64,000 nucleotides of DNA from Bryoerythrophyllum caledonicum (lineage: Eukaryota > Streptophyta > Bryopsida > Pottiales > Pottiaceae), in NCBI GenBank assembly GCA_963971425.1, contig OZ020517.1, positions 6,264,501-6,328,500 on the forward strand. Reading direction: 5' to 3'. The notes under the pieces are model-generated. The model was not told the origin of the DNA. It made no database searches and saw only the letters and a list, made by a program, of their open reading frames with translations. Shown piece by piece: positions 12,901 to 15,152 of this stretch. Position 1 is the first letter of the stretch; each line of letters starts with the position of its first letter. The translations under genes were made by a program, and so were the position numbers.

Positions 12901-15152
12901 TGCGTATTAATTTGTGAAGTGATGGAGTTTTGGATTTCCGGAATAAGCCTAGAGTCTTCTATGTGCGATGGCATGTATAGGTGAAGAATGAGCCATGGTT
13001 GGAGGGGTCGGTTAGTGATTTTAATAATTTGAAGGTATGGTGATATATTAGCCGGGGTAGGGATTTTAGTAATATTCCCAGGGAAGGCATATGATTGGTG
13101 TATGAGCATGAGGAGGCCTCCTCTCGTTGGTGTATATGGTATTCGTTGTTGGATGCATCTTGTAAGGGCATGAGTGTTATTAAATATAAGTTTGTAATCG
13201 GGGAATGTTTTTTGGATGTATTTTGTGGATTTAGTAGCGGTTAATTTAGTTTCCTGTATAGCAATTATGGCGGGTGGCGTGTTGGTGTGGGTAGATAGAT
13301 TGTGGAGGCATGGAAGAGCAGTGTTTAGGGATGCAGCGTTCCATGTTAAGATGTATGTATTGATGCCTCTGGTATTTTCGTTATGATTTCCAGTTGGTAT
13401 ATATGGGGTTGGTGGAGATGGGAATGTGTATTCTGGGATAGGCTCAAAGCATCTTGTTATTTCTTTAGTTAGTTCATGTGGCAAGAATGGGAAGTGTAGT
13501 TGGATAGTGTTTTGTGTGGGGGGTGAGGTTTGACTGTGTACGAAATCATATATTTCTTTGTGTATGGAGTCTCTATGTTCAATAATGTTTTGATTTTCTG
13601 CTAGGAAACTTGTATACGGGTGTTTTGTATTAATATGTCTTTCGGGTGGGTTATGTAGATTGATTAACTTGTTAAGGAGAGTATTGGTCCAATTTGTGGT
13701 ATTGGTATTTTGTAGGGCTAATATTTGGTTGCAGTCTTCTAGAGAGGGGTGTACTGTAATAATTAAAGCATATAGGATATGTGATGGGGGATGTGTAGTT
13801 TTCTGTCCAATGTAGTGTGCTATATGCGGGTAGGTCGTGTTATGTGAGTTATGTAGTTCATGTGTATTCTTTAGTAGTGGTGAAAATGTGTTAGCAAGGT
13901 GTTGATACTCGGGGTGTAGTTTTATAGTACTAGGGATAAAGTACATTTTTGCCCGTTTCTTATGAGCTGCGGGGTGTGTTTTTATTATGTTTGGCATCGG
14001 GCCTGGGTTTTTTTCAATGTCACCGCTGAGAAGTATTAGTATTTTACACAGGTAGATTGTGGTAGGGTATTGTTGTTGTTGGGTTTTTAGGTTTTGTAGG
14101 ATTTGTTTGGGTGGTTGGAGTTGTTGGGGTTTTTGTTGTTGTTGGTGTCTTTGGAGGTTTATTACTGTTGATGTTGTTGTTGTTGTTGTTGTTGTTGCTG
14201 TTGTTGTTTTTGATGTCATTGGGGGCTTTATCTTTTGGTGGTGGTGGTTGCTGTTGTGGTTGTGGGTGTGGGTGTGGTTGTGGGTGTGGGTGTGGTTGTT
14301 GTTGTTGTTGTTGTTGTGGGTGTGGGTGTGGTTTTTGTTGTTGTTGTTGTTGTTGTTGTTGTTGTTGTTGTTGTTGTTGTTGTTGTTGTTGTTGTTGTTG
14401 TTGTTGTTGTTGTTGTTGTTGTTGTTGTTGTTGTTGTTGTTGTTGTTGTTGTTGTTGTTGTTGTTGTTGTTGTTGTTGTTGTTGTTGTTGTTGTTGTTGT
14501 TGTTGTTGTTGTTGTTGTTGTTGTTGTTGTTGTTGTTGTTGTTGTTGTTGTTGTTGTTGTTGTTGTTGTTGTTGTTGTTGTTGTTGTTGTTGTTGTTGTT
14601 GTTGTTGTTGTTGTTGTTGTTGTTGTTGTTGTTGTTGTTGTTGTTGTTGTTGTTGTTGTTGTTGTTGTTGTTGTTGTTGTTGTTGTTGTTGTTGTTGTTG
14701 TTGTTGTTGTTGTTGTTGTTGTTGTTGTTGTTGTTGTTGTTGTTGTTGTTGTTGTTGTTGTTGTTGTTGTTGTTGTTGTTGTTGTTGTTGTTGTTGTTGT
14801 TGTTGTTGTTGTTGTTGTTGTTGTTGTTGTTGTTGTTGTTGTTGTTGTTGTTGTTGTTGTTGTTGTTGTTGTTGTTGTTGTTGTTGTTGTTGTTGTTGTT
14901 GTTGTTGTTGTTGTTGTTGTTGTTGTTGTTGTTGTTGTTGTTGTTGTTGTTGTTGTTGTTGTTGTTGTTGTTGTTGTTGTTGTTGTTGTTGTTGTTTTTG
15001 TCTTGATTAGTAGTATATATATATACTAAAATCTTGGTTTTAGTTTTTGTTTTGTGTGAATTTTTGTGATGTTTTTTCCAGCTTTTATTATTATTTATTG
15101 TAGTATATATGTATACTATTTTATTTAGATTTATTGCAGCATTGTTTGTCAA
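6972..15152 (-). CDS. LINE ORF2: endonuclease, reverse transcriptase, RNase H polyprotein
   Basis: The open frame covers 2726 codons counted from 15152, where the codon is TTG, not ATG. The order of domains is: poly-Asn tract (residues about 53-272); a His/Thr-rich stretch; the first in-frame ATG at residue 312 (14219); a 2A motif ending at residue 385; an APE-like endonuclease starting near residue 600 (TWNAASLN, then IIAIQETK, then LCGDFNRD); reverse transcriptase from about 1165 to 1430 with APGPDHIPNSILKN, LYIDFKNAFGSIDHPRL and YADD at 1400-1403; RNase H from about 2238 to 2375 (YYTDGSF with D2242, AEMMAIHKTL, FTDCINVLY, HANIDGNEQADKLAKEG); and a C-terminal CPICNT...H...C motif near 2500. 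It makes and inserts the cDNA at the nicked target. The frame stays open upstream to about 15269 and overlaps ORF1 in the -1 frame. Confidence 0.88.
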   Translation of the reverse strand: MTNNAAINLNKIVYIYTTINNNKSWKKHHKNSHKTKTKTKILVYIYTTNQDKNNNNNNNNNNNNNNNNNNNNNNNNNNNNNNNNNNNNNNNNNNNNNNNNNNNNNNNNNNNNNNNNNNNNNNNNNNNNNNNNNNNNNNNNNNNNNNNNNNNNNNNNNNNNNNNNNNNNNNNNNNNNNNNNNNNNNNNNNNNNNNNNNNNNNNNNNNNNNNNNNNNNNNNNNNNNNNNNNNNNNNNNNNNNNNNNNNNNNNNNNNNNNNNNNNNNNNNNNNNNKNHTHTHNNNNNNNHTHTHNHTHTHNHNSNHHHQKIKPPMTSKTTTATTTTTTTTSTVINLQRHQQQQKPQQLQPPKQILQNLKTQQQQYPTTIYLCKILILLSGDIEKNPGPMPNIIKTHPAAHKKRAKMYFIPSTIKLHPEYQHLANTFSPLLKNTHELHNSHNTTYPHIAHYIGQKTTHPPSHILYALIITVHPSLEDCNQILALQNTNTTNWTNTLLNKLINLHNPPERHINTKHPYTSFLAENQNIIEHRDSIHKEIYDFVHSQTSPPTQNTIQLHFPFLPHELTKEITRCFEPIPEYTFPSPPTPYIPTGNHNENTRGINTYILTWNAASLNTALPCLHNLSTHTNTPPAIIAIQETKLTATKSTKYIQKTFPDYKLIFNNTHALTRCIQQRIPYTPTRGGLLMLIHQSYAFPGNITKIPTPANISPYLQIIKITNRPLQPWLILHLYMPSHIEDSRLIPEIQNSITSQINTHTNHTIILCGDFNRDIALIGRHNGETFTPPRDIDYQWRNYTDNLELYLIPTDTQYSRQGGLNYTHTSLIDGFYIKTPNHTQYTSITNISTNLNSDHFPIQLNIPHNILISRPPTKTNSNDIKILNPIPKENLDNFNTIFFEKNSLHLDSLTEILSNHQHLTHIQWQEACTSLDKIINEISTTLEKTCKAPPTPQLTPRTSNQGGYLPRKLAKKWKQHLVTYHNIRKAIYIAKTNQNWRNHPILSELQNLRHPQIPQVPPLNNPHEDWLKDIADIAKTANKQARKITTKYTRECIRKAISKYRQLYESSPKKINRKVFKNNTNLPLDCILDKNNNILTSPNDIANEIHSQQSINNRPSTPPCHFQPQHTPTCTCGVRQYPWHDLDGFTIDKRGEPTTPLHTYYNRDTYNMCLKNLGNNKAPGPDHIPNSILKNMPPRFHDLLSLFFLHCYKQKAIPASWKTSLTILLYKKGNPSELPNHRPIALANTIYKLYTSTLTSILSAYGEKHQILHESQEGFRAERSTTRQIQTLIAALEDAKFTNKDIYILYIDFKNAFGSIDHPRLLTIMSDLGYPCDAVTLVGNIYSQSTTTYVGEFFGKTRPIPIQRGTIQGDTLSPYLFIIFLEPLLRWLQRGNNGYTFGTSKVTINSAAYADDLAAISGRLKSLQTQLDKIDKFCLWSGMELGVQKCAITGCPNKSKTNPTAFKALIQANNIHYRNQPIPVLNQNQPYIYLGINLVPSLKWKIQIHATTTKLIKQCKELTLCPVTLQQKIKMIDTVIRPGISYSFYAVPYSMPAINKLDKKIIAIQKKICGLPNCTPNIITQLPQELFGLEAFSLKNAYLRCIGEQLQNALNDKGRLGLIYSGLLRHILAIYGGAQYLQRLKKSDCFRSPITRTLFLLKTEGQIFLKSTLEDFLLDPAPLEQNWANEIHNLPRLDRQLSDKLLQKLFSANIIDLKQITLPNGTHLMDDKSYKTHYGTPHKLIKSALNIAKQLFCHPPCLPTCPNPCTNHVPPYTLKDSYIINHNDIHPNTNPPLIPPNPPHSRTYAPPSHILKNPSIHPINNITAHRHNKHIDSNKISKQYTSYLCHWSHNNNTYAKWLPQRNLFPWHNPNTSLHNTETLTQYYLRTQHSYYLNIIQIHHHQAQPRDRRFVTPPLIIPLLNISTTECNPETDIRTQTNTIKIQQDNAHIYEGNGRHLITIPLARLQWLWNQYHNALLTPINIEPIPQTFETEIVWLYQRYNYRIPKNDPLKNAHYTLPDPILDYLITSLNITHSYFSSPVTCSTKISKFYSPFERDKIFGSLGKAFDYKWSGIGLAHPHNEEETHQAIHWARLAANNDPNDNITIIITPDTHWYQNPNPLLGPFPDSHIIVLFEADSMTYKEPTRPPQIQTPRLEPATLRILCIHQQTCEIGNLENLTHLTLIAKNLNINKVYTAIALPTPISTRVNRNKKWSKTPHTNISTSTITELSLPLSYYQINMDLKFDPNFSYYTDGSFKEPTEVSPGHWHREKAGYGIYNSTKQIKLGKRLHGLQNILRAEMMAIHKTLKIITTQYPNEPAHIFTDCINVLYLLNTHIKHPTLHNSHPDKTILTSMVEMLQKRTQITTLHKVRAHANIDGNEQADKLAKEGREKTHKNAEHPYEHAYATPYYFHRYEWPSMSETPDKGPVRFLDKYLKKHDLVNNLKKLTENFPNIDKWTGNPNIHNVLSNNFWKNPTITDPQITCLIKFRTGQYMGNARKQLFFGIERFPKITCPICNTTDPDTWLHVLLQCQNPHIHSLIVKRHNKAVWAIRKLLISSTKSRCFILMNAGTFNDNPQENTVPPWLLPCRCHTQRCHCNARFKPDLLCVRGLPYKDPPPNHIDPSLTIQFIEFTYCNDRFSPDTIANKTNKYQPLLDDIQALGWKVDPLIVITAGARATTFIPSMTTLEETFKIPITSIKTTFSNINTIAIQHAMSILLHKRKLENNQPLPDASNPPP
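13998..14048 (-). other. 2A ribosome-skipping motif in LINE ORF2
   Basis: The translated motif CKILILLSGDIEKNPGP matches the canonical 2A consensus D-(V/I)-E-x-N-P-G-P with the usual preceding LLxxG. Skipping would occur between Gly (14001-14003) and Pro (13998-14000), so the enzymatic protein would begin at Pro385 of the frame. 2A motifs are known near the ORF N-terminus in trypanosome L1Tc and in some sea-urchin and amphioxus LINEs. Confidence 0.85.
14337..14996 (-). repeat. About 220 perfect GTT/AAC trinucleotide units
   Basis: An uninterrupted microsatellite of about 660 bp inside the retrotransposon. In the ORF2 frame on the minus strand every unit is AAC and encodes Asn. On the plus strand the three frames give only poly-Val, poly-Leu or poly-Cys and are not genes. 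The exact unit number in an assembly of such a tract may be unreliable. Confidence 0.95.

Follow-up and report, generated by a model that had tools for sequence, protein, structure and literature searches.

Long interspersed nuclear elements (LINEs) of the Ingi/L1Tc, CR1 and L2 groups that use 2A (StopGo) ribosome-skipping peptides have an apurinic-type endonuclease (APE) and lack a restriction-like endonuclease (RLE) domain. Such peptides have reportedly been found in L1Tc of trypanosomes and in animal LINEs of the APE type (the subjects of Heras 2006 and Odon 2013), and, to judge from the titles of those reports, the 2A lies in frame with the LINE proteins. Dualen/RandI elements of Chlamydomonas and other green algae, as presented in the accessible parts of PMC4640811, PMC8226300 and PMC3747384, combine an APE, an RLE, a reverse transcriptase (RT) and an RNase H, and their 3′ ends are formed by a repeat that is not poly(A). 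Here we describe a LINE in a 64,000-nucleotide stretch (hereafter the window) of contig OZ020517.1 of Bryoerythrophyllum caledonicum that has these four domains, ends in (TTC)n and carries a 2A motif near the N terminus of its second open reading frame (ORF2). It differs from the trypanosome and animal 2A LINEs, which are of the APE type, in its pairing of APE with RLE, its green-lineage host and a hypervariable repeat leader; because ORF2 has an RLE, we rejected membership in the APE-only groups. It also differs from the algal Dualen/RandI elements in its streptophyte-like host, its N-terminal 2A and a PCIF1-like domain, the last two of which are not mentioned for algal elements in the accessible parts of those papers. 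On sequence evidence, we put at roughly 85% the probability that the segment is a working StopGo site that would remove a variable leader from the ORF2 enzyme.

The motif, CKILILLSGDIEKNPGP, belongs to an ORF2 frame of 2415 residues from ATG 14219, in which NPGP occupies residues 71–74. Separation after NPG would leave a leader of 73 residues, or of 384 if translation began at TTG 15152 (the open reading frame list used the start codons of table 11), and a remainder of 2342 residues. A preliminary description of this DNA had given the same sequence, frame, coordinates and lengths, all of which proved correct when the minus strand was re-read. DIEKNPGP agrees at every position with the 2A/StopGo core (D/G/C/N)(V/I)ExNPGP, which occurs only once in the 127,996 six-frame residues of the window. 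The preceding LILLSG is L-rich and places (A/S/C)G before D, as in the permissive upstream context of PMC12846837 (section 10), and with G at p11, D at p12 and an L-rich hexapeptide, the local context is that of the L-rich StopGo class in the accessible part of that paper. LILLSG-DIEKNPGP resembles its motifs 2 and 6 (LLLLSG-like) in the L-rich run, the G before D and the canonical octapeptide; by contrast, the paper covers open reading frames of RNA viruses, as far as it is accessible, and its motifs 2, 4 and 6 favour S at p15, where the window has K. So short a motif might match by chance. Given the composition of ORF2, however, the core is expected 3e-5 times in that frame and none of 3000 residue shuffles yielded it; its fixed residues change only silently across 20 genomic copies, and it recurs ahead of the enzyme, upstream of the endonuclease, in other lineages (see below). 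On these grounds we rejected a chance match, the probability of which is negligible, and the full D-I-E-x-N-P-G-P match first noticed here is real.

The strongest evidence comes from copies of the element in the same genome. A search of 437,360,962 bases in 894 contigs gave 14,839 candidates, of which the 20 best-scoring, including that of the window, were analysed; all are copies at 88–100% identity, and 11 have no internal stops. G-D-I-E-x-N-P-G-P is kept in all 20 (19 by alignment, L022 by translation). For the codon counts, the motif start was located by the D-I-E-x-N-P-G-P pattern, which all 20 passed, and was confirmed independently of the pattern in 19. At the eight fixed codons (G66, D67, I68, E69, N71, P72, G73 and P74), all 9 distinct changes are synonymous and none is nonsynonymous, an outcome with a probability of 2e-6 if changes were neutral and independent (5.67 of 24 sites being synonymous), with the copies in part sharing ancestry. 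Variation is seen at the free position x (K or T) and at the serine that precedes the glycine (S or C). Leader residues 20–57 show 25 synonymous against 107 nonsynonymous distinct changes, a per-site ratio of 1.08; after the motif, with decayed copies included, the ratio is 0.45 at residues 75–289, 0.38 in the endonuclease and 0.35 in the RT. Because the fixed codons change only silently while the leader varies, these counts show purifying selection on the 2A peptide as such; the motif must therefore be translated.

ORF2 could instead normally start at the ATG directly behind the motif (M75), with the 2A as an untranslated or rarely translated relic. Of the 20 copies, 19 have that ATG, and L022, whose ORF2 is free of stops, has no ATG at all from the ORF1 stop to the motif. 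Such a relic is highly improbable, however, since silent-only change at fixed residues requires translation of the motif, M75 is replaced by V in L017, a copy without internal stops, and Met does not directly follow the motif in any of the nine other representatives chosen among related proteins.

The region in which translation of ORF2 would begin, from the ORF1 stop to ATG 14219, comprises 941 nt with 14 G. It holds one further ATG, at 15142, which is out of frame and, by eye, opens ATG-CTG-CAA-TAA. The CAA tract is mostly unpaired by prediction, except for A/U-rich hairpins near its start, with a predicted energy of −15.2 kcal/mol, below that of 20 shuffles (mean −3.5). Across the 20 copies the longest CAA-type run measures 18–660 nt and, in the five copies translated, encodes mainly Asn, Thr or Gln. 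An in-frame ATG lies within the open frame ahead of the motif in 15 of the 20. Ribosomes might also reach the leader by −1 frameshifting from ORF1, or by coupled termination, such that the 2A would cut an ORF1–leader fusion from ORF2 in the manner of picornavirus capsid and replicase. Relative to ORF1, ORF2 does lie in the −1 register in 15 of the 20 copies, and its frame runs on past the ORF1 stop without interruption for 22–121 nt; among these 15 are the divergent copies L021 and L022, and L022 has no intervening ATG. This openness is only suggestive, because triplet repeats keep frame by themselves, without selection; the register is broken in the other five copies, among them L009 and L017, which have no ORF2 stops, and no canonical slippery heptamer was seen by eye in the last ORF1 codons. 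We consider frameshifting rather unlikely and infer, as the more economical reading, that ORF2 translation starts imprecisely and that the 2A makes the start point irrelevant.

The run TIYLCKILILLSG is hydrophobic, and together with the 2A it might act as a dual-fate signal, with unskipped product directed to the membrane or to secretion and skipped product to the cytosol. A sea-urchin NLR 2A of this kind is reported, in plant cells too, in the accessible part of PMC4981915. The window leader (66 residues) contains no 19-residue segment above the hydropathy cut-off, however, and of 12 leaders tested, 7 have no such segment; on this basis we rejected the idea that leaders are generally transmembrane, and a dual fate is very unlikely.

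If the segment is a StopGo site, ribosomes would begin in the ORF2 frame at some point before the motif (in most copies probably the ATG that precedes the skip by 73 codons) and would make a short leader whose sequence matters little. The G73–P74 bond would not be formed, the leader would be released, and synthesis would continue to give a 2342-residue enzyme that always starts with proline. The likeliest purpose would be a fixed enzyme N terminus regardless of leader length, frame phase and starting point in a repeat-ridden leader. Skipping, its efficiency and this purpose are what we infer from the sequence, and the motif very probably functions as originally proposed. A degradation signal formed by the N-terminal proline would be an alternative purpose; the accessible part of PMC12846837 does not mention it.

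Relatives outside the genome were collected in two protein searches (lists of 62 and 110), which gave 156 distinct ORF2-related proteins. The searches took only candidates of 0.55–1.75 times the query length, and closer ORF2 fragments in short contigs would escape them; that such fragments exist is suggested by ORF1, which has 126 relatives at up to 56% identity. The motif does recur at the ORF2 N termini of relatives, where the preliminary description had proposed to look for it: 18 of the 156 proteins have the core, 13 of them from Haematococcus lacustris (many near-copies), the others being P0004, P0065, P0067, P0075 and P0078. An endonuclease was found downstream in 17 of these core bearers and was undetected in P0133. 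Two further proteins, P0025 and P0048 (the latter outside the clade), carry the variant DIHPNPGP; H at p14 is the StopGo variant that was about 90% or more active in the assay described in the accessible part of PMC12846837. Three others (P0012, P0064 and P0142) have NPGP before an endonuclease or without one, but no core. The parts upstream of the endonuclease, 63,715 residues in all, contain the motif (with E or H at p14) 20 times; the other 306,607 residues contain it once (in P0133), and 200 shuffles of the upstream parts gave a mean of 0.0 motifs. In ten representatives chosen for the motif, positions that the search pattern leaves free are shared as well: G precedes the core in nine, and L occupies positions −6 to −4 in 9, 9 and 8. 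P0067 bears tandem 2A-like stretches, GIEPNPGE then GIEPNPGP, as if duplicated and one had decayed. P0025 (4100 residues) combines its variant with a weak APE, an RT, a PCIF1-like domain and a C-5 cytosine DNA methylase domain.

An RT tree was built from 154 of 157 rows (three were dropped for RT length), of which 110 are uninformative on the motif owing to a short N terminus or no endonuclease. It groups the window with relatives that include Haematococcus, Parachlorella and Pleodorina proteins, and the core appears at four separate places: the window; P0065 and P0075; the Haematococcus group; and P0067, P0004 and P0078. This distribution takes 11 changes, against 18.2 in shuffles (0 of 500 as low), to which the near-copies contribute, and it fits ancestral presence with losses and repeated gain alike. 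Scans of viral contigs returned no relatives, nor did a genome-contig scan with ORF1. The scan with ORF2 returned two contigs, L001, which extends only about 280 codons before its endonuclease reading frame and is too short to judge the motif, and L002, which matches query residues 708–1824. Both hold Dualen-like LINE fragments and are labelled as Mollicutes and Clostridiales metagenome-assembled genomes, presumably through eukaryotic contamination.

When 12 bearers of the core or variant were compared with Pfam, an OTU or Josephin match lay between the motif and the endonuclease in 10, exceeding the curated cut-off in 8 and falling short of it in 2 (P0065 and P0067); P0075 and P0025 had none. 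The deubiquitinase-like match starts 14 residues past the motif in P0067, about 110–120 in the OTU cases and about 190–210 in six Haematococcus proteins, where the residues right after the new proline (for example, FEQQ...CQIHALN) are Josephin-like by eye. Four of the five Haematococcus leaders tested contain in-frame repeats of period 38. A recognised deubiquitinase between the 2A and the endonuclease of the window itself was rejected, as the Pfam scan gave none above threshold. Tentatively, and at somewhat less than even odds, the 2A of Dualen-type LINEs in green algae and streptophytes may be an N-terminus normaliser: after ORF1, translation of ORF2 would begin at points that vary and may even lack an AUG, by way of an unstructured CAA-repeat leader free in length and phase, and the same proline-starting enzyme would result, with a deubiquitinase-like first recognised domain in the relatives.

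Several observations weigh against a working StopGo site. Conservation is lower in the L-run, which has 10 distinct changes of each kind (synonymous and nonsynonymous), than in the core. Poor leader alignment in L021 and L022, the two most divergent copies, inflates the leader change counts, and nonsynonymous and synonymous change per site (pN/pS) in the leader is 0.14/0.26 in L018 and 0.09/0.11 in L020; we therefore describe leader residues 20–57 as weakly or not constrained. The 20 copies are the best-scoring ones and are kin, which means that their codon changes are not all independent and that decayed copies are under-represented. Five of them (L015, L017, L018, L020 and L022) have no in-frame ATG in the open frame before the motif, and L017 and L022 have no ORF2 stops either, which makes the start of the leader uncertain. 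In 43 relatives the endonuclease is preceded by more than 650 residues; 25 of these have neither core nor variant and 18 have one; P0001, among the nearest relatives of the window, has neither. The 2A is therefore optional in this LINE clade. Absence of NPGP from otherwise conserved copies had been named at the outset as a finding that would speak against function: core and variant are missing from those 25 long relatives, whereas none of the 20 scored copies of the host genome lacks the core.

The element itself is well delimited. A perfect 11-bp target-site duplication, TGTTTAAAGTT, brackets 6730–20411 (two occurrences in the window against 0.05 expected), and this interval is therefore a single insertion of 13.7 kb, within which lie ORF1, the CAA/AAC tract (660 nt) and ORF2 (Table 1). 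The predicted released enzyme would comprise, in order, an N-terminal stretch without detected homologue, APE, RT, the PCIF1-like domain, RNase H, CCHC and RLE.

Table 1 Coordinates of the LINE and its features in the window
Feature	Position	Strand	Remarks
Target-site duplication TGTTTAAAGTT, 3′ side of element	6719..6729	.	Element = 6730-20411
3′ untranslated tail	6735..6862	-	Strong hairpins and (TTC)n end
ORF2 enzyme predicted to be freed by skip	6972..14000	-	2342 residues from P74, plus stop codon
CCHC-RHN-KPD-E-K restriction-like endonuclease	6975..7649	-	Residues 2191-2415; R2-like by profile and fold
RNase H	8016..8441	-	Residues 1927-2068; PF00075 4.7e-13
PCIF1 (cap adenosine methyltransferase)-like domain	8853..9224	-	Residues 1666-1789
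Reverse transcriptase RVT_1	10701..11492	-	Residues 910-1173; Y1089, D1091, D1092 invariant
Apurinic-type endonuclease domain	12609..13352	-	Residues 290-537
2A/StopGo motif CKILILLSGDIEKNPGP	13998..14048	-	Residues 58-74 of ORF2 frame from ATG 14219; skip predicted between G73 and P74
Leader peptide	14001..14219	-	73 residues from ATG 14219; T/Q-rich, then hydrophobic run
CAA/AAC triplet tract	14337..14996	-	660 nt between ORF1 and ORF2 ATG; open in ORF2 frame (poly-Asn)
ORF1 frame	15155..19984	-	1609 residues open; conserved core 15155-16708 (517 residues)
Target-site duplication TGTTTAAAGTT, 5′ side of element	20412..20422	.	Element = 6730-20411

The window APE has Pfam scores of 7.5e-5 (Exo_endo_phos_2) and 1.6e-4 (Exo_endo_phos), both under the curated cut-off; in 12 scanned relatives, Exo_endo_phos scored ≤6.8e-7 in seven and 0.0038 in one, and was unlisted in four. 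APE residues N294, D450, N452, D534 and H535 are invariant in 10/10 aligned sequences, and RLE residues CCHC, RH, PD, E and K in 10/10 and 7/7. The best match of the RLE-domain profile in the PDB is the R2 retrotransposon protein 9nl2 (5.5e-4), and the top six fold matches of its predicted structure (mean predicted local distance difference test score (pLDDT) 81) are all R2 chains (E 7.5e-7 to 2.7e-5). The window thus has all three marks of Dualen/RandI, namely an APE upstream of the RT, an RLE downstream of it and an RNase H; the accessible part of PMC4640811 gives APE and RLE together as the distinction of Dualen. The element is a dual-endonuclease LINE, probably of the Dualen/RandI type, a class assigned from architecture. 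It is not an ordinary plant L1.

The PCIF1-like domain of ORF2 (Pfam 2.1e-9; model mean pLDDT 71; top six fold matches all PCIF1) is listed for many ORF2 relatives too. Its methyltransferase activity is doubtful, because the catalytic motif, NPPF, aligns with HPHN in the window and reads NPEY in the majority consensus. Among the titles and abstract openings searched, there was no report of a PCIF1-like domain inside a retrotransposon. For the ORF1 core, 126 relatives pass E ≤ 1e-3, with identity up to 56% among the 120 matches listed, none of which has a 2A; the core and four scanned relatives gave no significant Pfam match. Homology of ORF1 to proteins of the ORF2 relatives was rejected, as there were no matches. 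Upstream of the core (16709–19984, minus strand) lie 1092 codons of the ORF1 frame without a single stop, whereas the other two frames have 53 and 46; this part has no Pfam family and contains diverged internal repeats that by eye resemble short introns. Elsewhere in the window (22468–22573, minus strand) lies a 106-bp copy of the LINE 3′ tail only (hairpins and TTC repeat), flanked by a 12-bp duplication, TCTTGGAAGAGA; this tail-only retroposed insert suggests that the 3′ tail is sufficient for recognition.

The plant lineage assigned to the host in the preliminary description was accepted. Among solved structures, the actin gene of the window is closest to pollen F-actin 6iug (422.2 bits), ahead of the next chain (408.4) and of 7ju4_u (406.2), presumably a Chlamydomonas chain.

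LINEs with a 2A are already known; the literature searched, Odon 2013, Rao 2025 and Heras 2006 aside, appears to contain no description of a 2A from the green lineage or from a LINE with two endonucleases. In the accessible part of PMC11512398, algae appear alongside 2A-like and non-long-terminal-repeat terms only as expression hosts. A 2026 survey of viral StopGo (PMC12846837), as far as accessible, finds no evidence that plant viruses use StopGo naturally, even though the reaction functions in plants, and treats six plant-virus cases as host misclassification. If our reading is true, the green lineage has a 2A that is natural and under selection, which would close that gap and provide a native plant-lineage 2A for co-expression work. 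To the first account of the motif, the analysis adds that it is selected at the protein level within one genome, that it recurs in a clade of dual-endonuclease LINEs with members in green algae, and that the leader is free to vary; twenty copies with differing leaders in one genome are a ready natural mutagenesis set. The ORF2 of LINEs is often reached through unusual initiation, and a self-removing leader that makes the start point unimportant would be a possible reason for 2A in LINEs.

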